44,831 nt of DNA, from assembly GCA_903919455.1 (NCBI GenBank), contig CAIXIJ010000127.1, forward strand, positions 1-44,831, given 5' to 3'. This DNA comes from an uncultured Acidimicrobiaceae bacterium (lineage in GTDB: Bacteria; Actinomycetota; Acidimicrobiia; Acidimicrobiales; Ilumatobacteraceae). The position numbers and the translations under genes are program-made. This document shows positions 29,748 through 40,970 of this stretch, in pieces (the stretch's first letter is position 1; every line of letters begins with the position of its first letter). The notes under the pieces were generated by a model, which saw only the letters and a list, made by a program, of their open reading frames with translations, was not told the DNA's origin and ran no database searches.

Positions 29748-30724
29748 TGGCCGCGCCGCGTATCGCCGTCACCGGTCGGATCCCCGACGCCGGGTTCGAA
29801 CTGCTGCATGAGGCGGGCGACGTGGTGGCGTGGGATTCACTCGAGGTGCCGACGGTCGAACAGGTGCACGAGATGGTGGCGGGTGCCGATGCCGTGCTCA
29901 CGTTGCTCACCACCAAGGTTGACGACGCATTCCTCGATGCGGCCGGCCCGCAGTTGAAGGTGGTCGCCAATGTCGCGGTTGGCTACAACAACATCGACGT
30001 CGCCGCCTGCTCCCGCCGTGGCGTGGTCTGCACCAACACTCCCGGTGTGCTCACCGAGGCCACCGCCGACATCGCGATGGCGCTGGTGCTCATGTCCACC
30101 CGCCGTCTCGGCGAGGGCGAGCGGGTCATCCGTAGCAACACACCGTGGCAGTGGGGCATGTTCTACATGCTCGGCTCCGGCATTCAAGGTCGTCGTCTCG
30201 GCATCGTGGGCATGGGCGACATCGGCCAGGCACTCGCTCGCCGGGCGCGTGCATTCGGCATGACCATCGCGTACTCGAACCGTAAGCCGGTGGCCCCCGC
30301 CATCGAGACCGAACTGGGTGCCGAGTTCATGAGCATGGACGAGTTGCTCACCACCAGCGATGTAGTGAGCATCAACTGCCCGTACTCGCCAGCCACGCAC
30401 CACCTCATCAGCAGCAGCGAGCTGGGCATGATGAAGTCGTCTGCCTATCTCATCAACACTGCGCGCGGTCCCATCGTGGACGAAGCGGCGTTGGTGGACG
30501 CGCTCCGTTCCGGTGAGATCGCGGGCGCCGGGCTCGATGTGTTCGAAGCCGAACCCACGGTGCACCCCGGTCTGCTGGAGTGCGAGAACGCGGTGCTGGT
30601 GCCGCACCTCGGTTCGGCCACGGTGGAGACCCGGTCAGCAATGGCTCGCCTCGCGGCGCACAACGCTGTGAACGTGCTGAGCGGTGTGGAACCGCCTACG
30701 CCGATTCCGGTGCCGGCGAGCTGA
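29747..30724 (+). CDS. D-2-hydroxyacid dehydrogenase (glyoxylate/hydroxypyruvate reductase type)
   Basis: A 325-residue NAD(P)H-dependent reductase of D-2-hydroxyacid type. The nucleotide motif is LGIVGMGDIGQALARRARAF, and the catalytic set is complete: Arg in INTARGPIVDEAAL, Glu in LDVFEAEPTVHP and His in VLVPHLGSATVETR. NVAVGYNNIDVAAC is also typical of the glyoxylate reductase/glycerate dehydrogenase branch. Its start overlaps the aminotransferase stop by one base, so the pair probably runs 2-oxo acid to hydroxy acid after transamination. The gene ends inside the end of the convergent lnt gene (29-nt overlap). Confidence 0.92.
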   Translation: MAAPRIAVTGRIPDAGFELLHEAGDVVAWDSLEVPTVEQVHEMVAGADAVLTLLTTKVDDAFLDAAGPQLKVVANVAVGYNNIDVAACSRRGVVCTNTPGVLTEATADIAMALVLMSTRRLGEGERVIRSNTPWQWGMFYMLGSGIQGRRLGIVGMGDIGQALARRARAFGMTIAYSNRKPVAPAIETELGAEFMSMDELLTTSDVVSINCPYSPATHHLISSSELGMMKSSAYLINTARGPIVDEAALVDALRSGEIAGAGLDVFEAEPTVHPGLLECENAVLVPHLGSATVETRSAMARLAAHNAVNVLSGVEPPTPIPVPAS

Positions 30725-32261
30725 TCCTCGGTCGCCCACGCCACCAGGCAACGGCGAACACCGCGGCCATCATCAGCACCCATGGCAGGTTGCCGATGAG
30801 CGAGTACCAGGTGCGCCCCGAGCGACGCTCGATGGGCTGGCTGACGACCGCCCTGGCGCAGGGCTGGCCGGTTTCGGCATCAGACACCGAGCACTGGCTG
30901 ACAGATGTGCGTTGCAGCACATCGCCATCGGGTGACACGAACGCGCTGAACCCGGTGGGTGCTGCCTGAACGACCCACCTTCCCTGCTCCACCGCCCGCA
31001 GTTGCGACGATGCGACCTGCTGGGTCTGCAGCACGGTCCAGGTGTAACTGCTGCCGTTGGTGGGGTTGATGATGAACTCGCCGCCATGCACCACACCATC
31101 GTTGGCGCGACCGCCGAAGAAGACCTCCCACGAGATGACCACGCCCATCGTCGTGCCACTCGGCAGCGTGAGCACCGCCGGGCCGGTGCCGGCGATGGCG
31201 TCGTGGGGCACCAGATCGGTGGGGGCGCCTACGGCGTGCAAGAGCCCGCGCATCGGCATGTATTCGCCGAACGGCACCCGGCGGACCTTCTCGTACCGGT
31301 CGTACACATCGCCCTCTGGTGTGACCACCACCTGCGCGTTGATGAAGCGGTCATCGCCGGCGTCCTCGGTGATGCCGACGGCGAGCGGCGCGCCGATGCG
31401 GGCCGCCTGCTCGGCGATGGCGGCGAGTTCGGTGCTGCCCTCGAACGTGGGCACGTCGATCACGTTCTCGGGCCACAGAACAAGGTCGGCCGAACCGGAA
31501 GCGATGGTGCTGGTGGCGTCGAGGTGGCGCTGGAACACGGCCTCGTGTCCGGTGTTCACAGCGTGCGTACCCTGGGGCCCGCCGCCCTGCACCACCGTCA
31601 CTCGGAGCGGAGCAGCATCGGCAATGGCGTGGGTGCCATCGGCCAACGGACTGACCGCCCACACTGCCAGCGCGGCGACGAATGCGACGACGCCGTGCCA
31701 TTCACCCTTTGCGGTGACGCCTCGTTGCCGGGCGAGCGCGGGCACCACGGGTGACGGCCCCGCTAACGCAAAGCCGATCTGGAACGTGAACCACGTGAGC
31801 AGCAGTACACCTCCGACGCGCGCCATGCCGAGGAACGGGCCGCCCGCCTGCCCGATGGCCAGCGTGGCCAGCGGCACGCCGCCGAAGGGGAAGCACAGCC
31901 GCAAGGCTTCGGCAAGTGTGTGCGCAGCGGGTCGACCGATGACGCGCCACGGCCCTCGCGGTGCACTGAGCGCTGCAAGGCCATGAAACAAGGCGAACAG
32001 CAGGGTGGCGAGTACGTAACCGGGAGCGGTGAGGAACCACATCCACGCCATTCCGGGGCCGAGCCAACCGAATCCGAACACCATGCCCAGCGTGAGGCGC
32101 TGTCGACCGGTTTCAGCCTGCTGCAGGCTGGTCTCGAACAGTGCGATGCCCACGAAGGCCAATGGCCACCACCCCCACGGTGGGAGCGACATCGCCACCA
32201 GGAAACCTCCGAGCAGGGCATACGCCGAATGGCGGGTGGGGCGAAGGCGAGGGCGAATCAC
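30696..32261 (-). CDS. lnt: Apolipoprotein N-acyltransferase-like protein with Ser at the catalytic Cys site
   Basis: A 521-residue protein of the Lnt/nitrilase family, which adds the third acyl chain to lipoproteins. The N-terminal half has about six hydrophobic segments (GGFLVAMSLPPWGWWPLAFV onward); the periplasmic nitrilase domain starts near residue 230. The catalytic Glu is in LVLWPENVIDVPTFEG and the Lys in YDRYEKVRRVPFGEYMPMRG. Where the catalytic Cys of Lnt (C-Y/F-E) is expected, the codon is TCG: VVISWEVFFGG. This could mean a lost or altered acyl transfer. A final membrane segment lies near the C-terminus. The GTG start at 32261 has a TAGCGT box 9 nt upstream. Confidence 0.85.
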   Translation of the reverse strand: MIRPRLRPTRHSAYALLGGFLVAMSLPPWGWWPLAFVGIALFETSLQQAETGRQRLTLGMVFGFGWLGPGMAWMWFLTAPGYVLATLLFALFHGLAALSAPRGPWRVIGRPAAHTLAEALRLCFPFGGVPLATLAIGQAGGPFLGMARVGGVLLLTWFTFQIGFALAGPSPVVPALARQRGVTAKGEWHGVVAFVAALAVWAVSPLADGTHAIADAAPLRVTVVQGGGPQGTHAVNTGHEAVFQRHLDATSTIASGSADLVLWPENVIDVPTFEGSTELAAIAEQAARIGAPLAVGITEDAGDDRFINAQVVVTPEGDVYDRYEKVRRVPFGEYMPMRGLLHAVGAPTDLVPHDAIAGTGPAVLTLPSGTTMGVVISWEVFFGGRANDGVVHGGEFIINPTNGSSYTWTVLQTQQVASSQLRAVEQGRWVVQAAPTGFSAFVSPDGDVLQRTSVSQCSVSDAETGQPCARAVVSQPIERRSGRTWYSLIGNLPWVLMMAAVFAVAWWRGRPRISSPAPESA

Positions 32262-32270
32262 TGAATGGCG

Positions 32271-32276
32271 ACGCTA
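32271..32276 (-). promoter_or_regulatory. Candidate -10 box (TAGCGT) for lnt
   Basis: On the minus strand TAGCGT is followed by 9 nt and then the GTG at 32261, close to leaderless spacing. It matches the hexamer found before several other genes in this window. Confidence 0.5.
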
Positions 32277-32360
32277 GTCGGCGGCCTCCGTCGTGGTCGC
32301 ACGACGCAGATACGACCACGCTTCGTCCGGTCCCTTGCCAGTTTCTTGATAGTTTCCATC

Positions 32361-32389
32361 TTGTTCGACACGGATTTCTCACCTAACGT
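32361..32389 (+). promoter_or_regulatory. Candidate promoter for the surface-protein gene
   Basis: TTGTTC (32361-32366) and TAACGT (32384-32389) are separated by 17 nt, so transcription would begin near 32396. The protein start lies about 130 nt further on, leaving a long leader. The -35 matches only half of the usual consensus. Confidence 0.5.
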
Positions 32390-32395
32390 GACACT

Positions 32396-32510
32396 GTGTC
32401 TTTTTGGACACGACGGGACGTATTGATCCGCTGGCTGCAATTGGTCGCTTCGCCGGCGGGGAGCGAGCAGCGAACCCACCCCATACAAGGTCGAGACGGG
32501 AATCTCGACC
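32396..32510 (+). ncRNA. Structured 5' leader of the surface-protein mRNA
   Basis: Three inverted repeats lie in this leader: GTGTC/GACAC (32396-32411, 6-nt loop), an imperfect stem GGTCGCT with AGCGAACC (32443-32476) and a clean 8-bp stem GGTCGAGA/TCTCGACC with a 6-nt loop (32489-32510). The ribosome site GGAGGT (32519-32524) follows 8 nt later, before the ATG at 32529. I do not match it to a known riboswitch. Structure is seen; regulatory function is inferred. Confidence 0.5.
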
Positions 32511-32528
32511 CTCTATTCGGAGGTTGGG

Positions 32529-35500
32529 ATGTCACAGGTTCGCGGAGCGTTCCGAAGCGGAATCGGTCGATTGGCCATGGCAGTCATGCTGCTGCTTGGC
32601 CTGTTCACGGTCGCTCCGATGCTGTCGGGCACGGCCAGTGCCCAAATGGCGCATCTCGAGGCATCGGTCTCGTGCGACGGCACCGTCGACTGGAGTGCCA
32701 CGTCGTGGTCGAAGGACGACCAGGGCAGCAACGACGATGTGCGCGTGCATCGCAGTTCCGATGGGGGCGCCGACGACGAGATCGGTCACGGTTCCTTCAG
32801 CGGCGACAACGGGTACACGTTCTCGGGCCAGTTCACCTGGCCCGAAGGCGTCACCACGATGGCCGTCTCCACGCATCCGCAGGGTGGTTGGGGTAGCGGC
32901 GACGACTCGAACGACGACGAGGGCCACGACTCGGTCGAGCTGTCGAAGCCCGACTGCGATGCCGAAGGGCATGTGGAGCACCAACTGCAGTGCGAGAACT
33001 CGGCGCCGGGTTACGGCGACGGCGACGCTTCCGTGGAGCTCACCAACCCGTCTGGGCCGTTCGGGCATGATGCCGAATTCGATGTCTACGAACCCGACCA
33101 GAGCGAGCACTACACCACCTATACGGTGCATGCAGGCGAGCGCCATAAGGTCGATTTCCACGGCCTCGAAGAAGGCCGCCATCACATCAAGATCTCCGAG
33201 GGTGGTCACGACCACTCCACCTACGTCGAGGTGAACTGCGATCAGGCAGTCCCCTCGGTGAGTTCCTCACAGGCGTGCATCAATGGCGCAGGCTCGATCA
33301 CGGTGAATCTGTTCAACACCGGCGGCGAGACTGCAACGTTCTCGGTGGAGGACCCCTCCACCCATGTCGCCGAGACGGTGGAAGTAGCACCGAACGAATC
33401 GCAGAGCCGCACGTTCGCCGGTCTCGACGATGGCGAGTACACGGTGAAGGTGATGTCGGGTGAGGCCGACCTGTCGCAGTACTTCGAAGTGCACTGCGCT
33501 CCCGTAGTGGAGCCCCCGCATCCGCCGGCCTGCGAGATCAACGAAGGTGAAGGTGGCTACTACAACAGCACCAGCACATCGATGGAGACCGAGTCGAGCG
33601 TTGAGAACACCACCGGTGAGAGCACCGAGACCAGCGTGGAGAACACCACCGGTGGCAGCACCGAGACCAGCTCGTCGGGTTCTCGTCCCACCTACGGCGT
33701 GATGCATTCCGCCTCCTCGTCGTCCTCGTCCAGCAGTTCGTCGGTGAAGCCCAGCTCGTCCTCGTCGAGTTCGTCGGTGAAGCCGAGTTCGTCGTCGTCG
33801 AGTTCGTCGGTGAAGCCGAGCTCGTCCTCCACGAGCAGCACCGTGAAGGGTGAGAAACCCAGCTCGTCCAGCAGTTCGTCGGTGAAGCCGGGCTCGTCGT
33901 CCAGCAGTTCGTCGTCGAGTTCGTCGGTGGCTGGCGAGTATGAGTCGTCGTCATCGAGTTCGTCGGTGGCTGGCGAGTATGAGTCGTCGTCGTCCAGTTC
34001 TTCGGTCGCCGGAGAGTACGACTCGTCCACCAGCACCTCGATGGAAGGCGGCAATGGCGGAGAGTACGACTCGTCCACCAGCACCTCGATGGAAGGCGGC
34101 AATGGCGGCGAGTACGAGGTCGACCCCTGCAAGCCGCCCGAGGAGCATGCTCAGGGCAAGATCACCGTGGTGAAGGCGTGTGCCGACCACGATGGCCAGG
34201 TCACCATCACGCTCACCACTGTGGGCGGCTACGACGAAGTGGAATTCATCGTGGAAGGCACCACCTACAAGGTGGAGCCGGGTTACAGCATCAACGTCGT
34301 GATCGGTGGCCTCACCGATGGCACGCACCACATCAGCGTCCAAGCCGGATATCAGGATCTGTCCTTCGATGTCGAGATTGCGTGCGACCTGCCGCCGCGG
34401 GTGAGCGTGACGAAGGAATGCAAGGCGTTCGACGGCAGCGTGTCGATTCTTCTGGAGAATCTGGGCGACGACACCGATGCCACCTTCACGGTGGATGGTG
34501 TCGACCACATCGTGGCGCCGGGGGGTTCCACCACGGTGGTCATCGATGGCCTGCCGGATGGCGTGAATGCCATCCCGTTGGCGATCAACGGTGTACCGCA
34601 GCCCGATCTCACTGTGCTGATCAAGTGCAATCCCGTCATCGACGTGGTGGCCGAGTGCAACACGGTCTCGAACCTCGGTGAGGTCGACAGTTACTGGTTC
34701 ACGGTCACCAACACCGAAGCAACCGACATCGAGATTGTCTGGGAAGGCGGCTCGACGATCGTTGCCGGTGGCACCACCGTGCGGATCCAGTCGGCGACGT
34801 CAGCCTTGACGATCAAGCAGAAGAACGGCGAAGTCATCAAGGCAGCGCCGTCGAGCAACGTGGTCTGCCGTCGCGATGTGGTGGTGGAGAAGTTGCTGAT
34901 CGGTGCTCCTCTCACACCTGAGACCTACACCGTGATGGTGTCTCGCTGGGTGAACGGCGCCTACGTGCCGGAGCTGAGCTTCCAGGTGCAGCCTGGCAGC
35001 CCCGTGACGGTGCAGCTGCCCTCCACGCTCGATCCGGCCGGCATTCAGTACCGCATCGACGAGACGAACAAGGGCACAGCAGAGGACAGCGTGGTCACCC
35101 CCGATCAGTTCCTGTTGACCGGTCACCTGGGCGACGTCGTGCGGGTGAGCGTCACCAACCGCTTCGCGCCGCCGCCCACCACCACCACGGTGGTGGTGAC
35201 TACGACCACGACGCCGGTGGCGGAAACCACGACCACCACCCCGGTGGTGGAGCCGACGACCACAACGACGCCGGTGGGCGAGACCACGACGACTACGACG
35301 CCGGTTGGTCCTACGGTTCCTCCGACGACGGAGCCGCCGGTTGGTCCGACCGTTCCTCCGACGACGGAGCCGCCGGTTGGTCCGACGGTGCCGCCGACGA
35401 CCGTTCCTCCGACGACGGTTCCGCCGACGACCGTTCCTCCGACGACGGTTCCGCCGACCGTTCCCCCGACGACGGAGCCGCCGGTTGGTCCGACTGTTCC

Positions 35501-35981
35501 GCCGACGACCGTTCCTCCGACGACGGAGCCGCCGGTTGGTCCGACCGTTCCTCCGACCGTTCCTCCGACGGTTCCGCCGACGACGGAGCCGCCGGTTGGT
35601 CCGACGGTTCCGCCGACGACCACGACCACGCCGGTGGTGGCCACGACGACGACGATTGTTGACACGGGTGGGCCGACGACCACGACGGATCCGGGTGCTC
35701 CGACCACGACGGATCCGGGTGCTTCGACCACGACGGATCCGGGTGCTTCGACCACGACGACGATCGTTGAGGTCGGGGGGCCGACGACGGTCCCGACGCC
35801 CTGTTGCGACCCGGTACCCACCACGGATCCGAACACGAGTGTGTCGGTGGAGCCGCCGGTTCCGCCCATCACCGACCCGCTGCCCGTCACCGGTGGTAGC
35901 AACCCGCTGCCGCTGATGCTGATCGCCTTCGGGATCGCATGCATCGGTGGCTCGATGGTGCTGGTTCGCCGCCGGGCCTGA
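32529..35981 (+). CDS. LPVTG-anchored surface protein with Cys-bounded Ig-like modules and Ser/Thr/Pro stalks
   Basis: An 1150-residue cell-wall protein. Residues 1-38 are a signal peptide (cleavage likely after SGTASA). Residues 39-380 and 535-830 hold about five modules of 70-110 residues, each opening at a Cys (for example KACADHDGQVTITLTTVGGY and KECKAFDGSVSILLENLG) and closing at a Cys (EVHC, EIAC, LIKC), so each may be disulfide-locked. Between them lies a Ser-rich stalk (about 393-530) with GEY-type spacers. A Thr/Pro stalk (about 881-1117) leads to LPVTG (1118-1122), a hydrophobic segment and RRRA, a classical sortase sorting signal. Its ATG follows GGAGGT. A sortase gene faces it 200 nt away. 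Probably an adhesin, filament or coat component; no exact homologue is recognised. Confidence 0.88.
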   Translation: MSQVRGAFRSGIGRLAMAVMLLLGLFTVAPMLSGTASAQMAHLEASVSCDGTVDWSATSWSKDDQGSNDDVRVHRSSDGGADDEIGHGSFSGDNGYTFSGQFTWPEGVTTMAVSTHPQGGWGSGDDSNDDEGHDSVELSKPDCDAEGHVEHQLQCENSAPGYGDGDASVELTNPSGPFGHDAEFDVYEPDQSEHYTTYTVHAGERHKVDFHGLEEGRHHIKISEGGHDHSTYVEVNCDQAVPSVSSSQACINGAGSITVNLFNTGGETATFSVEDPSTHVAETVEVAPNESQSRTFAGLDDGEYTVKVMSGEADLSQYFEVHCAPVVEPPHPPACEINEGEGGYYNSTSTSMETESSVENTTGESTETSVENTTGGSTETSSSGSRPTYGVMHSASSSSSSSSSSVKPSSSSSSSSVKPSSSSSSSSVKPSSSSTSSTVKGEKPSSSSSSSVKPGSSSSSSSSSSSVAGEYESSSSSSSVAGEYESSSSSSSVAGEYDSSTSTSMEGGNGGEYDSSTSTSMEGGNGGEYEVDPCKPPEEHAQGKITVVKACADHDGQVTITLTTVGGYDEVEFIVEGTTYKVEPGYSINVVIGGLTDGTHHISVQAGYQDLSFDVEIACDLPPRVSVTKECKAFDGSVSILLENLGDDTDATFTVDGVDHIVAPGGSTTVVIDGLPDGVNAIPLAINGVPQPDLTVLIKCNPVIDVVAECNTVSNLGEVDSYWFTVTNTEATDIEIVWEGGSTIVAGGTTVRIQSATSALTIKQKNGEVIKAAPSSNVVCRRDVVVEKLLIGAPLTPETYTVMVSRWVNGAYVPELSFQVQPGSPVTVQLPSTLDPAGIQYRIDETNKGTAEDSVVTPDQFLLTGHLGDVVRVSVTNRFAPPPTTTTVVVTTTTTPVAETTTTTPVVEPTTTTTPVGETTTTTTPVGPTVPPTTEPPVGPTVPPTTEPPVGPTVPPTTVPPTTVPPTTVPPTTVPPTVPPTTEPPVGPTVPPTTVPPTTEPPVGPTVPPTVPPTVPPTTEPPVGPTVPPTTTTTPVVATTTTIVDTGGPTTTTDPGAPTTTDPGASTTTDPGASTTTTIVEVGGPTTVPTPCCDPVPTTDPNTSVSVEPPVPPITDPLPVTGGSNPLPLMLIAFGIACIGGSMVLVRRRA
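33709..34010 (+). repeat. Ser-rich tandem repeats within the surface-protein gene
   Basis: Repeating TCGTCG-type codons encode runs of Ser broken by VKPS and VAGEYES blocks. Two near-identical blocks carry TCGTCGGTGGCTGGCGAGTA. Such tracts are prone to slippage, so stalk length may vary between strains. Confidence 0.85.
34011..34106 (+). repeat. Two tandem 48-bp repeats
   Basis: Units 34011-34058 and 34059-34106 are essentially identical and each encodes the 16-residue unit GEYDSSTSTSMEGGNG (phase approximate). They look like a recent in-frame duplication at the end of the Ser-rich stalk. Confidence 0.9.
35300..35620 (+). repeat. Thr/Pro-rich stalk repeats (TVPPTTEPPVGP type)
   Basis: Blocks encoding TVPPTTEPPVGP and TVPPT recur at least eight times, with DNA units built on CCGACGACGGAGCCGCC. 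The tract precedes the LPVTG signal and probably holds the protein off the wall. The imperfect copies suggest expansion and contraction. Confidence 0.85.
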
Positions 35982-36008
35982 GGTCACGCCGACATGTGAT
36001 GCTGGTCA

Positions 36009-36040
36009 GGCGCTGATCTGGAGTGATCCAGGTCGGCGCC
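36009..36040. terminator. Hairpin between the convergent surface-protein and sortase genes
   Basis: A 14-bp stem (36009-36022 with 36027-36040), including two G-T wobble pairs on the plus strand, closes on a GTGA loop. It lies 28 nt after the surface-protein stop. There is no T-tract; it may serve as a terminator for that gene, or for both directions. The remaining gap up to 36193 shows no gene or clear signal. Confidence 0.6.
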
Positions 36041-36193
36041 TCACCTCATCGGCGTTCTCGGCACCGTGAGCGCATGCTTCTTGTCGCGACCCCATCACTA
36101 TCCCTGGTGGCCAAGCCGCGACAAGAACGAGGTTCGACGCGCCTGGGGGGGGCACTACCGGCTACTCGACTCGCCAGCCCAGATGACACGCTC

Positions 36194-36838
36194 TCAGGCA
36201 GTGGTGAGTTGCAAGTGCACCACGATGCGCTGGCGCGTGCTGCCCGGCGGGTGGCAGGCGAACAGTGTGGCGGTGAAGCCATCGCTCTGATCGATGATGA
36301 ACAGAGCGTTGGGGCGCACGACTTCGGTGCCGGTGACGGCGTACACGAAGCGGCCCTCCATCGTGGTGAAGATCACCTGGTCACCGGGAAGCAATTGATC
36401 GATGTTGCGGAACGGCCGATCGTGGCTGGTGCGGTGCCCCGCGATGACGGAGTTACCGCGGTGCCCCGGCTTCGCTGTGCCCGGCCAGTGACCGGGCCCA
36501 CTGTCGAGCACCGTCAGCGAAACACCTTCGTACATGTTCTTGGTGACCCCGATCTTGGGAATCTCCAATGTGCCGATCTGCACCACCGCCACGTTGGCGT
36601 GCGGCGCCGGTGGCGGCTCGGGGATGGGCAGCGCCTCGGTGGTCGTGGTGGTGCTGGAGGTGGAACTCGTCGAGGTGGATGACGAAGTGGTGCTGGAGGT
36701 GGAACTGGTGGTGGTTGCTGCGGTGGTGGCCACCGTGTCGTCGAGTGTGGCCGCGGTGGGGCCATTGTTGCCGCTGCATGCGCCAATCGATAGCGCAGCG
36801 GCTGTGAGGAGCACCGTGCGTCGAATCATCGGTTTCAT
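36194..36838 (-). CDS. Sortase, class E/D-like, made as a lipoprotein
   Basis: A 214-residue transpeptidase expected to cut LPxTG-type signals and link the protein to the wall. Residues 1-20 are a signal peptide ending IGAC, so Cys21 is probably lipidated, unlike usual sortases that keep a membrane helix. A Thr/Ser linker (about 35-68) follows. The catalytic domain has IGTLEIPKIGVTKNMYEGV, the His in SVIAGHRTSHDRPFRNID (H135), the Cys in ATLFACHPPGS (C195) and Arg at 202 or 204 (TRQRIVVHL). The ATG overlaps the hemY stop by 4 nt. Its likely client is the LPVTG protein facing it (inference). Confidence 0.92.
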   Translation of the reverse strand: MKPMIRRTVLLTAAALSIGACSGNNGPTAATLDDTVATTAATTTSSTSSTTSSSTSTSSTSSTTTTTEALPIPEPPPAPHANVAVVQIGTLEIPKIGVTKNMYEGVSLTVLDSGPGHWPGTAKPGHRGNSVIAGHRTSHDRPFRNIDQLLPGDQVIFTTMEGRFVYAVTGTEVVRPNALFIIDQSDGFTATLFACHPPGSTRQRIVVHLQLTTA

Positions 36839-38181
36839 TGTGCCAGCCGCGCTGCTGCTTTGCCCGCGGAGTTGATGCACGCAGGCACGCCGATGCCGTG
36901 ATAGCTGGCACCGGCAAGGGCGAGGCCAGCCGGAAGCGCGGCCTCGAGGTCGGCCACCCGTTTCGCGTGGTGTGGTCGGTACTGCGGAAACGCGCCGGAC
37001 CACCGCGTGATGCGATGCGCGGACGGCGCCAAGCTGAGACCGAGATGGCGGCCGACTTCGTCGACTGCGGCGGCGAGCAGTTGGTCGTCGCCGAGGTGCA
37101 GCACGGGCAGTCCGTCGCGACCCAGCGAGATCCGAAGGATGACGCTGGATGCAGATGCCCAGTGTGACCACTTCTGAGAGCCGAACGAGACAGCGGTCAC
37201 CAGCCGTTGCACCGGCTTGGGCACCAGGTAGCCGCTGAGCGCGGTGAGGTGTGCCGGCCAATCGGCTGCGGGGATAGCGAGTGTCACCATCGCCACATCG
37301 GCGGTGGGAATGGAGGCCAGCGTGCGTGCAGCGTCCGGCAGCATCGATTCGAGCAACGTGGCCGAGGCCGCTGCCGGGCACGCCAGCGCAACCCCATCGA
37401 ACAACTCGCCGTTCACGCGCCATGCACTGCCGTCAGAGGCAAGTTCGCTGATACCGACCCCGCAGCGCAGTTCGGCTCCGGCTCCCTGTGCAGCCTCGGC
37501 GGTGCGCATGGCAAGGTCGCCCATGCCGCCCTGGGGGGCGTAGAACACAGGGCCGGCATTGGCTGACGGTGCGGGCATCGTTCGGCCCGCCATCAGGATG
37601 CTGCGCGCCTTGCCCGCAAGGTCGGCGATCTGCGGCACGGCGGCGAGACTGAAGTGGTCGGTGTCGGCGGCGTAGATGCTGCCCACAAGGGGATCGACGA
37701 GCCGCACGTGCACTTCGTTGCCGAACCGCGCACGCACGAAGCCACCGAGCGAATCGGGTTCCAGATTGGTGCGCCGCCGGAACGGTTCGGTGGCAGCGCG
37801 CAGCTTGCCTGCCCATGGGATGAGCTTGCTCTTCGCCAACGCCATCACGTCGGTGGGCATGCCGAGCAGCAGGCCTTGGGGGATGTCGTGCAGTTGATCC
37901 CACCAGACGGCGGCCTTTCCTGCGCTCGGCGACACGAGTTCGCTGCCAAGGCCAACCGCCTGCGCAAGACCGGTGCCCCACGGCAGCCTGGCAAGGAAGG
38001 CATCGGGTCCTTCATCGATGCCTGCGTGACCGGCAAACGGAGTCGTGAGGATCTTGCCTCCGAGCCGATGGTCGCGTTCGAACAGCACCACATCGATGCC
38101 CTGCTGCGCAAGGGCGTGGGCTGTGGCCAGACCGGCGATCCCTCCGCCGACCACGGCGATGCGGCGAGTACCGGCGGTCAT
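36835..38181 (-). CDS. hemY: FAD-dependent protoporphyrinogen/coproporphyrinogen oxidase
   Basis: A 448-residue flavoprotein that oxidises a porphyrinogen in heme synthesis. The FAD motif AVVGGGIAGLATAHALAQQG is at the N-terminus, followed by RDHRLGGKILTTPFAG and the DEGPDAFLARLPWGTGLA segment; MGDLAMRTAEAAQGAGAELR and the C-terminal GIGVPACINSAGKAAARL are also family features. In Actinobacteria this HemY type often oxidises coproporphyrinogen (CgoX) in the coproporphyrin route; sequence alone does not decide. It lies 3 nt after hemH and overlaps the sortase gene. Confidence 0.93.
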   Translation of the reverse strand: MTAGTRRIAVVGGGIAGLATAHALAQQGIDVVLFERDHRLGGKILTTPFAGHAGIDEGPDAFLARLPWGTGLAQAVGLGSELVSPSAGKAAVWWDQLHDIPQGLLLGMPTDVMALAKSKLIPWAGKLRAATEPFRRRTNLEPDSLGGFVRARFGNEVHVRLVDPLVGSIYAADTDHFSLAAVPQIADLAGKARSILMAGRTMPAPSANAGPVFYAPQGGMGDLAMRTAEAAQGAGAELRCGVGISELASDGSAWRVNGELFDGVALACPAAASATLLESMLPDAARTLASIPTADVAMVTLAIPAADWPAHLTALSGYLVPKPVQRLVTAVSFGSQKWSHWASASSVILRISLGRDGLPVLHLGDDQLLAAAVDEVGRHLGLSLAPSAHRITRWSGAFPQYRPHHAKRVADLEAALPAGLALAGASYHGIGVPACINSAGKAAARLAQ

Positions 38182-38184
38182 GGG

Positions 38185-39117
38185 TCAGACCGCTGCGATC
38201 ACTCGCTGGGCAAGAGCAGCCATGACGGCGGGGTTGTCGTTCACGCACGCGGTGCGAGCGAATGCCATGCCGAGCCCGGCTGCACGAGCCGCGGCCTCAA
38301 TGTCGAGGTCGTACAACACCTCGAGGTGGTCGGCCACGAAACCGACAGCGCTGATCAGCACGCCGCGTTGGTGATCGGCATCGTTCTCCGCGGCAGCGAG
38401 ATCGTCGATGACCGTGAGGATGTCGGGACCCAACCACGGTTCGGGGGTGCGACCAGCGCTCTGCCAGGCGATCGACCAGTTGCTCCATTGCGAAAGGCCC
38501 ACCTTCTCGGCGACGGCCACGGCGGTGCTGCGGAGTTCATCGGGATACGGATCGCCGGCATCGACGATGCGCTGCGGAAGCGAATGAGCCGTGAAGAGCA
38601 CCTTGGTGTCGGCCGGCATGGTGTCGAGCTTCGCCTTCAGGTCGTCGGCGATGAACTGCACGTACGCCGGCTCGGTGGCCCAACTCTCGATACCGCTTAC
38701 CGTGATGCCGTGCGGTTCTGCGGCGGCCTTCGCCCGGTCGAGGTACTGGCCGATGGAGTACGACGAGTAGTGCGGAGCGAGCACCAGGCCCACGATGTGT
38801 CGGAAGCCCTGGGCGGCGATGGCATCGACCGCAGCTTCGATCTTCGGATCGGCGTGCTTCAGGCCGAGGCTCACCTCATACTGACCGGGTGCTGCGGCAT
38901 CGAGGGCGTGTTGCAGCGCGGCGCGCTGTGCCTCGGTGCGTGCGGCCAACGGGCTGGTGCCACCGAGCGCGTCGTAGCGGGCGATGAGGTCGGCCAGCGC
39001 TTCCTCGGTGGGCGGACGGCCGCGGCGGATGTCGGTGTAGTACGGCAGGATTTCTTCCGGAGTGCGGGGCGTGCCGTAGGCCATCAGCAGTACGGCGGTT
39101 CGGTCGGCGTTGGTCAT
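38185..39117 (-). CDS. hemH: Ferrochelatase
   Basis: A 310-residue enzyme that inserts iron into protoporphyrin or coproporphyrin. Family segments are LLMAYGTPRTPEEILPYYTD at the start, LKHADPKIEAAVDAIAAQGF, VLFTAHSLPQRIVDAGDPY with the catalytic His, and a conserved Glu in VGFVADHLEVLYDLD. The length is on the short side and close to the actinobacterial form, which usually works on coproporphyrin (CpfC) with a later HemQ step; no hemQ lies in the window. Its ATG overlaps the hemE stop by 4 nt. Confidence 0.95.
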   Translation of the reverse strand: MTNADRTAVLLMAYGTPRTPEEILPYYTDIRRGRPPTEEALADLIARYDALGGTSPLAARTEAQRAALQHALDAAAPGQYEVSLGLKHADPKIEAAVDAIAAQGFRHIVGLVLAPHYSSYSIGQYLDRAKAAAEPHGITVSGIESWATEPAYVQFIADDLKAKLDTMPADTKVLFTAHSLPQRIVDAGDPYPDELRSTAVAVAEKVGLSQWSNWSIAWQSAGRTPEPWLGPDILTVIDDLAAAENDADHQRGVLISAVGFVADHLEVLYDLDIEAAARAAGLGMAFARTACVNDNPAVMAALAQRVIAAV

Positions 39118-40154
39118 CGTGCGGTCCGTTCGTGCACGCGTGCCGCAACTGCGGTCAACACGTCGGGGTTGGTGGGCGGGTGGACCCCGTGGCCGAGGTT
39201 GAAGATGTGGCCCGGGTGGCCGTCGTTATCGGCCAGTACGGCATCGGTGCCGGCAAGCGCCGCTTCGATGCCCGCCAGCGCCAGTACCGGGTCGAGGTTG
39301 CCCTGCACCACGAGGTCGGCACCCATACGAGCACGAGCCTGCTGGATGGGGGTACGCCAGTCGAGCCCGAGGATGCTCGGGCCCGCGGCGCGCATGCTCT
39401 CCAGCAGGTGGTCGCAACCCACGCCGTAGTGAATACCGGGTGCATCGGGATGCAGCTCGCGCAGTGCCGAGAACACGGCCCGCGAATGTGGCAACACGAA
39501 GCGGTCGTAATCGATGCGGCTCAGCGTTCCGGCCCAACTGTCGAACAATTGAAAGGCCCGGCCACCGTTCGAGAGCTGGCTGGAGATCGAGGCCACGGCG
39601 TGCTGCACCAGTCGTTCCATCAGCGCCTGCCACAACTCGGGAGCGGTGTGCATCATCCGCTTGGTGTGTTCGTAGGTGCGGCTAGGCCGCCCCTCGATGA
39701 GGTAGCTCGCCACGGTGAACGGGGCGCCGGCGAACGCCAGCAACGGCACGGCAGGCGACAGTTCGTTCGCCAGAGTGCGCACCGTGTCGAGCACATACGG
39801 GGTGTCGGACTCGGGTTCGAACTCACGCAGTCGCGCCAGATCGTCGATGCTGCGGAACGGCTGGGAGCAGACCGGGCCGGTGCCGGGCGCGACATCGATG
39901 CCGAAGCCCACCGCGTGAGCTGGCACCACGATGTCGCTGTAGAGCACGGCAGCGTCGACGCCGTAGCGGCGCACCGGCTGCAGCGTGAGTTCCACCGACA
40001 GGTCGACCTGCTTGATCGCGTCGAGGATGCTGCCCTCGCCGCGCAGAGCGCGGTATTCCGGCAGGCTGCGGCCCGCCTGCCGCATGAACCACACGGGTGT
40101 GTGAGCGGCGGGGCGACCGGCCGCGGCATCGAGGAACGGCACGCTGGACGACAT
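39114..40154 (-). CDS. hemE: Uroporphyrinogen decarboxylase
   Basis: A 346-residue enzyme that decarboxylates uroporphyrinogen III to coproporphyrinogen III. The signature TPVWFMRQAGRSLPEYR near the N-terminus, the catalytic Asp in AAVLYSDIVVPAHAVGF, and GCDHLLESMRAAGPSILGLD and NLGHGVHPPTNPDVL near the end are diagnostic. The ATG at 40154 is preceded at 8 nt by TAGCGT on the minus strand. It heads a four-gene run hemE-hemH-hemY-sortase. The longer open frame to 40712 runs antisense through the next gene and is a shadow. Confidence 0.96.
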   Translation of the reverse strand: MSSSVPFLDAAAGRPAAHTPVWFMRQAGRSLPEYRALRGEGSILDAIKQVDLSVELTLQPVRRYGVDAAVLYSDIVVPAHAVGFGIDVAPGTGPVCSQPFRSIDDLARLREFEPESDTPYVLDTVRTLANELSPAVPLLAFAGAPFTVASYLIEGRPSRTYEHTKRMMHTAPELWQALMERLVQHAVASISSQLSNGGRAFQLFDSWAGTLSRIDYDRFVLPHSRAVFSALRELHPDAPGIHYGVGCDHLLESMRAAGPSILGLDWRTPIQQARARMGADLVVQGNLDPVLALAGIEAALAGTDAVLADNDGHPGHIFNLGHGVHPPTNPDVLTAVAARVHERTAR

Positions 40155-40162
40155 CGTCCGGC

Positions 40163-40168
40163 ACGCTA
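40163..40168 (-). promoter_or_regulatory. Candidate -10 box (TAGCGT) for the heme-sortase operon
   Basis: On the minus strand TAGCGT is followed by 8 nt and then the hemE ATG at 40154, fitting a leaderless transcript. It is the best example here of one promoter serving both heme enzymes and the sortase. Confidence 0.55.
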
Positions 40169-40186
40169 TCTGAGGACGCCGTAGAG

Positions 40187-40192
40187 CAGGAT
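40187..40192 (+). promoter_or_regulatory. Candidate -10 box (CAGGAT) for the SDR gene
   Basis: CAGGAT ends 7 nt before the ATG at 40200. It matches the TAnnnT pattern only at two positions, but the spacing agrees with the neighbouring leaderless genes. The same bases also include an AGG that could be a weak ribosome site. Confidence 0.35.
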
Positions 40193-40199
40193 GTCGGCC

Positions 40200-40970
40200 A
40201 TGACTGAACTGTTCTCTCTCCAGGGCAAGACCGCACTCGTCACGGGCGGCAGCCGCGGTATCGGCTTCATGATTGCCACCGGCCTCCTGCAGGCCGGCGC
40301 CAGTGTGGTGATCAGTGCGCGCAAGCAGCACGAACTCGACGACGCCAAGGCGGCGCTGAGCCAGTTCGGTGATGTGCACGCCGTCCGCGCCGATGTGAGC
40401 ACGCTGGAAGGCGTGGAGGCACTGGCCGCTGAAGTGAGTGCCCATTTCCCGGTGCTGAACATTCTGGTCAACAACGCCGGCGCCACCTGGGGTATGCCGC
40501 TCGACGACTTCGACGAGAACGCCTGGGACAAGGTGATGGACACGAACGTGAAGGGTGTGTTCTTCCTCACCCAGAAGCTGCTGGCGAACCTTCGCGCGGG
40601 GGCATCGCACGAGGACCCGGCCCGCGTCATCAACATCGGCTCGATCGATGGTTTGCACGTGAACCCGATGGACACCTATAGCTACGCCGCCAGTAAGGCG
40701 GGGGTGCACCACCTCACCCGCGCGCTCGCTCGCAAATTGGGCCCGGAGTTCATCACGGTGAACGCTGTGGCCCCCGGCCCGTTCGAGAGCAAGATGATGG
40801 CCGCCACGCTGAAGTCGTTCGGCGACAACATCGCCGCCTCGGCGCCGTTGCGTCGCATCGGCCGACCCGACGACATGGCCGGTGTGGCGGTGTTTCTCTC
40901 CAGCCGGGCTGGCAGTTACATCACGGGTGCGGTCATCCCGGTGGATGGCGGCATCGGCACCACGGTCTGA
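40200..40970 (+). CDS. SDR-family oxidoreductase
   Basis: A 256-residue classical short-chain dehydrogenase. The cofactor loop GGSRGIGFMI, the NNAG motif, the catalytic Ser in INIGSIDGL and the YxxxK motif YAASK are all intact, as is the C-terminal ITGAVIPVDGGIGTT. This points to an active NAD(P)H-dependent ketone/alcohol enzyme, perhaps of the 3-oxoacyl-ACP reductase or glucose dehydrogenase type; the substrate is unknown. I prefer the ATG at 40200 (MTELFSLQGK) because of the upstream spacing; an ATG at 40191 would add three residues. It is divergent from hemE. Confidence 0.92.
   Translation: MTELFSLQGKTALVTGGSRGIGFMIATGLLQAGASVVISARKQHELDDAKAALSQFGDVHAVRADVSTLEGVEALAAEVSAHFPVLNILVNNAGATWGMPLDDFDENAWDKVMDTNVKGVFFLTQKLLANLRAGASHEDPARVINIGSIDGLHVNPMDTYSYAASKAGVHHLTRALARKLGPEFITVNAVAPGPFESKMMAATLKSFGDNIAASAPLRRIGRPDDMAGVAVFLSSRAGSYITGAVIPVDGGIGTTV

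Follow-up and report, generated by a model that had tools for sequence, protein, structure and literature searches.

The window analyzed here, the 44,831-nucleotide contig CAIXIJ010000127.1 of an uncultured actinobacterium of the family Ilumatobacteraceae, encodes a 214-residue sortase (positions 36,194 to 36,838, minus strand) beside a 1,150-residue surface protein with a C-terminal LPVTG sorting signal (32,529 to 35,981, plus strand). We consider it likely that the enzyme is a lipid-tethered, general LPxTG sortase of the Ilumatobacteraceae and that it serves several clients, the neighboring LPVTG protein among them. Support at the level of sequence comes from the anatomy of the proteins, the hem-sortase-lnt gene order, the inheritance of the lipobox, and the scarcity of sorting signals in genomes that have no sortase. 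In the proposed mechanism, the sortase would be exported by Sec, receive diacylglycerol on Cys21, be cleaved by signal peptidase II, and perhaps be N-acylated by Lnt, whose gene comes next in the row. The lipid would hold the enzyme at the outer face of the membrane, ~64 residues of Ser/Thr-rich linker would keep the catalytic domain at a distance from the bilayer, and Cys195, His135, and Arg204 would cut LPxTG signals between T and G and link the proteins to a wall precursor. From sequence we infer lipidation, transpeptidation, and the serving of the LPVTG protein by this enzyme instead of by a class E-like paralog encoded elsewhere in the genome. The interest of the locus lies in the apparent lineage of lipid-tethered, Trp-type sortases in a hem-lnt row and not in the pair of adjoining genes.

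A PF04203 match of 97.5 bits (curated cut-off 26.6), together with an AlphaFold2 model whose best Foldseek matches are solved sortases of classes D, C, E, and A, places the protein in the sortase superfamily, in a class E-like HWPGT/FACHPPGS subfamily; the mean predicted local distance difference test (pLDDT) score of the model is 82, and the catalytic part mostly exceeds 90. We searched 200 family genomes, of which 141 matched, and fetched the best 80 places (L048 to L127; matches down to E 4.5e-46, minus a second hit in G183), the window being one more locus. In an alignment of 36 orthologs, His135 (codon at 36,434 to 36,436), the nucleophile Cys195 (36,254 to 36,256), and Arg204 (36,227 to 36,229), all on the minus strand, are invariant. 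A pattern search of the 80 uncut loci found the Cys and Arg together with the His in 74, and 6 were read in the printed ends. The first-pass annotation, made from the letters and a list of open reading frames, had described a complete sortase with His135, Cys195, and Arg202 or Arg204 as catalytic residues, of which all but the variable Arg202 stand. In that list the frame runs from 36,194 to 37,423 (409 residues) because it stays open upstream into the hemG-type oxidase gene; the plausible start is the ATG at 36,838, which shares 4 nucleotides (ATGA) with the TGA of that gene, the overlap with a heme gene that had been pointed out before.

A predicted lipid anchor on the sortase

Lipoproteins conform to a general lipobox rule, and their maturation involves lipid transfer to the lipobox Cys and cleavage by signal peptidase II. 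The N terminus of the sortase, MKPMIRRTVLLTAAALSIGAC, has the pattern of a lipoprotein, with an n-region, a short h-region, and a lipobox (L-S-I-G-A-C) in which Cys21 is the lipidation candidate (I-G-A-C at 36,776 to 36,787, minus strand). Between the lipobox and the catalytic domain lies the Ser/Thr-rich linker (36,584 to 36,775, minus strand), which is mostly of low confidence and free of secondary structure in the model.

The lipobox recurs among the family orthologs. Among the 78 orthologs with readable N termini (81 loci minus L093, L121, and L125, whose N termini are cut off), 61 carry a lipobox at the end of their most hydrophobic N-terminal segment, compared with a mean of 10.7 and a maximum of 20 in 500 shuffles, and in 60 of these 61 a start codon is placed so that the signal peptide would be 14 to 42 residues long. 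The +2 residue is Gly in 32, Ser in 18, Ala in 10, and Thr in 1. A lipobox is absent from all 13 class E-like paralogs in the genus (L138, an ortholog, was set aside). On a sortase tree with few columns and many open forks (126 rows, 117 of them labeled and nine without a readable N terminus; L050 left out), the lipobox label requires 9 changes versus 38.8 when shuffled, at least four being forced by starred branches. Lipoboxes are also found outside the family in L252, L246 (LQGC, missed by the pattern and labeled by hand), and L259, and doubtfully in L235 (VGAC) and L258. The excess of lipoboxes over shuffled sequences (61 of 78 orthologs versus a mean of 10.7) makes it probable that the sortase is a lipoprotein, as the first-pass annotation had proposed from its lipobox.

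Lipoboxes recur in actinobacterial class F sortases, to which the present enzyme is not closely allied (25.7 bits on the class F model, cut-off 166). Of 30 class F loci, 6 were unreadable; among the other 24, the pattern flags 8 N termini, and by eye 6 lipoboxes are convincing (L376, L378, L379, L380, L382, and L387, all from other Actinomycetota), while L383 and L397 look false and L398 is possibly a misread frame. The present case is therefore not unique in kind, and lipid-anchored sortases probably arose more than once.

Sortases are described as membrane-bound via a transmembrane segment (PMC5148588, PMC13251363), and an open-access literature search turned up no description of one that is a lipoprotein, which is not proof of novelty. 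The "lipoprotein sortases" of PMC1586193 are sortases that attach lipoproteins, a lipidated laboratory SrtA is merely cited in PMC9928477, the lipobox of PMC10924467 belongs to a non-sortase protein, and in PMC3910706, which came up for sortase and Ilumatobacter, sortase occurs only in a reference title. The same open-access literature yielded no paper on sortases together with Acidimicrobiia and nothing useful on T. fusca sortase E or on sortases together with Lnt. If true, a conserved lipobox lineage would mean that the anchor of a sortase is exchangeable and that sortase function is subject to lipoprotein processing.

Sorting signals, client motif, and the second sortase

We built a sorting-signal model from 22 tails of the genus and used it instead of NF058582, whose matches we set aside as evidence because most control genomes were also positive (13/14 at E up to 10 and 11/14 at E up to 1). 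In the window's own genome (3.55 Mb in 150 contigs), the genus model finds nine signals, that of the LPVTG protein and eight further candidates; the tails read are LPVTG, LPSTG, LPRTG, LPATG, and LPWTG, with contig C123 also giving LPATG. Among the loci listed, all 27 genus tails are LPxTG or LPxSG and none is LAxTG, although the pattern admitted LA. Across 44 family genomes, selected by their sortase matches, signals occur in 27 of the 30 with a sortase versus 1 of the 14 without (Fisher p 1.4e-7), and the association holds among genomes of at most 2.2 Mb (7/9 versus 1/13; p 0.0015). At least one signal is present in all 21 genomes with this ortholog and in 6 of the 9 with weaker sortase matches, some of which may hold diverged orthologs. 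For the genus genomes, the looser NF058582 result was already known before the co-occurrence test.

The LPxTG form of these signals is of interest given the relationship of the enzyme to class E. The class-specific hidden Markov model check suggested in the first-pass annotation returned NF033747 (NCBIfam class E) as the best class model, at 107.4 bits, which is below its cut-off of 160; all 36 aligned orthologs match this model at E 0.001 or better, with the lowest best E-value among class models. The present sortase shares its fold, its catalytic His, Cys, and Arg, and its actinobacterial origin with the class E enzymes SrtE1 of Streptomyces coelicolor (5cuw) and SrtE of S. avermitilis (5go5), but it differs from them in having Trp118 (GHWPGT; codon at 36,485 to 36,487, minus strand) where class E has a Tyr in the beta3/beta4 loop, in the shorter loop that precedes its Cys strand (~13 residues modeled versus 26 in SrtE1), and in carrying a lipobox without the membrane helix and cytoplasmic extension reported for SrtE1 (PMC5148588). 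Plain class E membership was accordingly rejected on cut-off, Tyr, and loop length. The top solved match both by sequence and by Foldseek is a class D sortase from Clostridium perfringens (4d70; 37% identity in the Foldseek alignment), but class D models score below class E on the present sortase.

Trp118 is invariant in the 36 aligned orthologs and was found by pattern in 79 of the 81 loci; L105 also has Trp (GWWPDT), and L124 has Leu. In the alignment with class E SrtE from S. avermitilis, its segment pairs with GHY, and it would be the counterpart of Tyr229 of SrtE1; in PMC5148588 this Tyr comes after strand V226-H228, and the role suggested for it, in the beta3/beta4 loop, is recognition of the Ala in LAxTG. 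The equivalent residue is Phe in the genus paralogs read and Tyr in four class E-like proteins from outside the family. Trp is unable to accept the proposed hydrogen bond. We infer that Trp118 favors LPxTG over LAxTG clients, and the first-pass remark that the client here is LPxTG and not LAxTG fits such an active site. The subfamily represents a natural Tyr-to-Trp test of the choice between LAxTG and LPxTG by class E-like enzymes.

Several observations weigh against a lipid-tethered general sortase. Six of the 44 genomes contributed tails to the sorting-signal model, and some of the matches in these genomes therefore arise by construction; the co-occurrence counts pool all sortases, so clients can be assigned to neither enzyme; an unlinked, membrane-bound, class E-like sortase on contig C148 may serve them. 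Tyr is also found at the Trp118 position in A. oris SrtA (5utt, GHY), which is not class E, so this residue alone does not fix the sorting motif. In addition, 17 of the 78 orthologs have no lipobox, which indicates that the lipid anchor is not essential and that anchors seem to have been exchanged in evolution, and the h-region of the present sortase is short, with a modest hydropathy of 2.12, so that Cys21 might be there by chance in this one protein.

The C148 enzyme is one of four sortase-domain genes in the genome, the others being that of the window, one on C116 without the catalytic Cys, and one on C51 that ends a 592-residue protein. The C148 enzyme could be the one that acts on all the LPxTG proteins, that of the window included, leaving the lipobox sortase with another role or narrower clients. 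Its Pfam score is above that of the lipobox sortase, it has hydrophobic segments at both its N and C termini, and every one of the 15 genus genomes holds, besides the ortholog, a further sortase match of at least 103 bits (13 read as the C148 type and one more separately). We nevertheless regard this alternative as unlikely: the sequence data here assign clients to neither enzyme, and the C148-type proteins read in the genus are also without the class E Tyr, with Phe in its place. It is quite unlikely, moreover, that the N terminus of the sortase is an uncleaved membrane helix with an incidental Cys. The 17 orthologs with a hydrophobic segment and no Cys motif suggest that a helix can stand in for the lipid, but the other 61 keep the lipobox at the end of the h-region while the rest of the N terminus diverges, with +2 residues restricted to Gly, Ser, Ala, or Thr, and the trait is clustered on the sortase tree.

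Taking the lipid-tethered general sortase together with its relatives, we tentatively put forward a lineage of lipid-tethered, wall-anchoring sortases, in which the general LPxTG sortase of the Ilumatobacteraceae would be a true lipoprotein in an Lnt row, lipid anchors and helices would have been swapped several times, and Trp for Tyr would mark a switch from LAxTG to LPxTG.

In two genus genomes, the C116 gene (L003, positions 324 to 1,220) and L154 encode a protein with a sortase domain in which other residues stand in place of the catalytic Cys and Arg (VTSEGG...QIVV), a predicted conserved sortase-like pseudoenzyme. The C116-type gene adjoins one for a protein that ends in a membrane segment and RRKLAS without an LPxTG motif, and in L003 a further neighboring frame looks, by eye, like one for a substrate-binding protein.

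The hem-sortase-lnt row and the LPVTG protein

The sortase gene sits in a row of minus-strand genes. Upstream are the hemG-type oxidase gene (36,835 to 38,181; Pfam Amino_oxidase, named hemG from its place beside hemH), hemH for ferrochelatase (38,185 to 39,117; PF00762), and a hemE-type open reading frame for uroporphyrinogen decarboxylase (39,114 to 40,712; named by eye, with its true start further in, and kept in the row of relatives); beyond the LPVTG gene lies lnt for apolipoprotein N-acyltransferase (30,696 to 32,261; PF00795 and PF20154). The order hemE-hemH-hemG-sortase-lnt is conserved across the family loci compared. We found hemG immediately upstream of the sortase in 68 of the 71 loci with at least 1.5 kb of upstream sequence (the misses are L105, L112, and L120) and lnt immediately downstream in 67 of the 75 with at least 1.5 kb of downstream sequence, the remainder having an insert before lnt (6/75) or no lnt found (L120 and L125). 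In 63 of 74 loci, the nearest possible sortase start lies -4 to +7 nucleotides from the hemG stop, a figure biased toward small distances by picking the nearest start codon at each locus. Outside the family (296 genomes searched, 204 matched, and 40 loci taken, of which L266, L267, L271, and L272 are class E-like paralogs and not orthologs), hemG and lnt flank the sortase in 4 of the 40 loci (L242, L243, L250, and L252), all from the same taxonomic order, and diverged neighbors may have escaped this count.

The row also persists in relatives picked for little or no similarity to this sortase. Of these seven genomes, six have no match to it at E 1e-10 and one has a weak match (G009, E 7.2e-12). 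The hemG and lnt matches are 27, 15, and 0 nucleotides apart in L366, L367, and L370, respectively; broken sortase remnants lie between hemG and lnt in L364 and L365 (G034 and G001), whose genomes have neither a Pfam sortase nor a sorting-signal match; and no hemG match was found in the stretch taken around lnt in L368 and L369. Persistence of the row without a sortase, or with its remnants, identifies the sortase as a dispensable member of a stable row. Lnt is the last enzyme of lipoprotein maturation, and across the family its gene regularly adjoins that of the lipobox sortase. Orthologs that have no lipobox, such as L076, also adjoin lnt, and the adjacency may be functional or may reflect only shared transcription.

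In the window, the LPVTG gene occupies the space between sortase and lnt, tail to tail with the sortase gene and with 212 nucleotides between the two stop codons, close to the 200 first reported. Inserts in this slot were found at six loci, all in the genus of the window: the window itself (LPVTG), L048 (LPVSG), L049 (LPRTG), L062 (LPRTG), L064 (LPSTG), and L073 (LPKSG). They have the same orientation and similar N termini, and five of the six have a module region in common, which is present in 6 of the 15 genus genomes. In a phylogeny built from a concatenation of five proteins (21 rows, 20 of them labeled; L050, whose sortase is cut by a contig end, has no insert label), the insert requires two changes, and a single clade is rejected (p 4.5e-8). 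Homology among the inserts and their shared slot make two independent insertions less likely than a single gain followed by three or more losses, or than transfer between clades.

The first-pass annotation had seen in the two genes a dedicated display system and had suggested comparing gene neighborhoods for the co-occurrence of sortase and LPxTG protein. A private system of this kind would agree with the adjoining genes in six genus genomes from two separate clades and with a slot kept beside the sortase for inserts alike in orientation, N terminus, and, in five of six, module region. However, the comparison finds an LPxTG gene beside the sortase in only 6 of the 75 loci, all in one genus, and sortase and lnt side by side without such a gene in 67. 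Seven relatives in the genus (G149, G131, G141, G049, G063, G010, and G075; completeness of G149 74% and of G141 79%) show no module-region match at E 1e-4, and in each of them lnt adjoins the sortase gene. Conversely, G157 is a possible case of the surface protein without the sortase: it has two homologs ending in LPETG (L225 and L231), the stretches taken contain no match to sortase or lnt, and the sole sortase matched in the genome is a class E-like paralog, but the genome is 78% complete and its lnt runs into a contig end. An exclusive pair is thus largely refuted by gene order across the 75 loci, and a private system is very improbable: the sortase gene is part of the conserved hem-sortase-lnt row, the insert was seen in one genus, and further sortases and sorting signals occur in the genome. 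Most likely, the LPVTG protein is not the reason the sortase exists, and part of one genus carries it in this slot.

The surface protein itself has the anatomy first described for it. It comprises a signal peptide (residues 1 to 38, assigned by eye; 32,529 to 32,642), Ser-rich and Thr/Pro-rich stretches beside Cys-containing modules (34,158 to 35,171), and a sorting signal of LPVTG, a hydrophobic stretch, and RRRA (35,880 to 35,978), all on the plus strand; the N terminus is alike in all six inserts, and the C-terminal end reads DPLPVTG-GSNPLPLMLIAFGIACIGGSMVLVRRRA. The protein thus has the signal peptide, C-terminal LPxTG, hydrophobic stretch, and basic tail of an LPxTG cell wall protein, and with its beta modules and its Ser- and Thr/Pro-rich stalk it shows no basic difference from such proteins of Gram-positive bacteria, homologs of the modules having been sought within the genus. 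In the genome, its signal is the top match of the genus model, which includes its own tail as one row; NF058582 gives 18.4 bits, below its cut-off of 27, and the Pfam profile search of the window proteins listed no cell-wall anchor model for it, placing PF05506 at residues 252 to 310. The module region, recognized by alignment, is predicted to be all beta at pLDDT 86. Its Foldseek matches are multidomain beta proteins, including pilins and an adhesin, all with low template modeling scores, so "Ig-like" is a fair description of the modules and no family is named.

A scan of positions 32,200 to 36,250 gave no promoters and two terminators, compared with 1.9 in shuffles. In G157, L225 (contig C330) is an open frame of 1,636 residues that ends in LPETG, matches the module region several times, and exceeds the six inserts in length; modules seem to multiply inside this surface-protein family.

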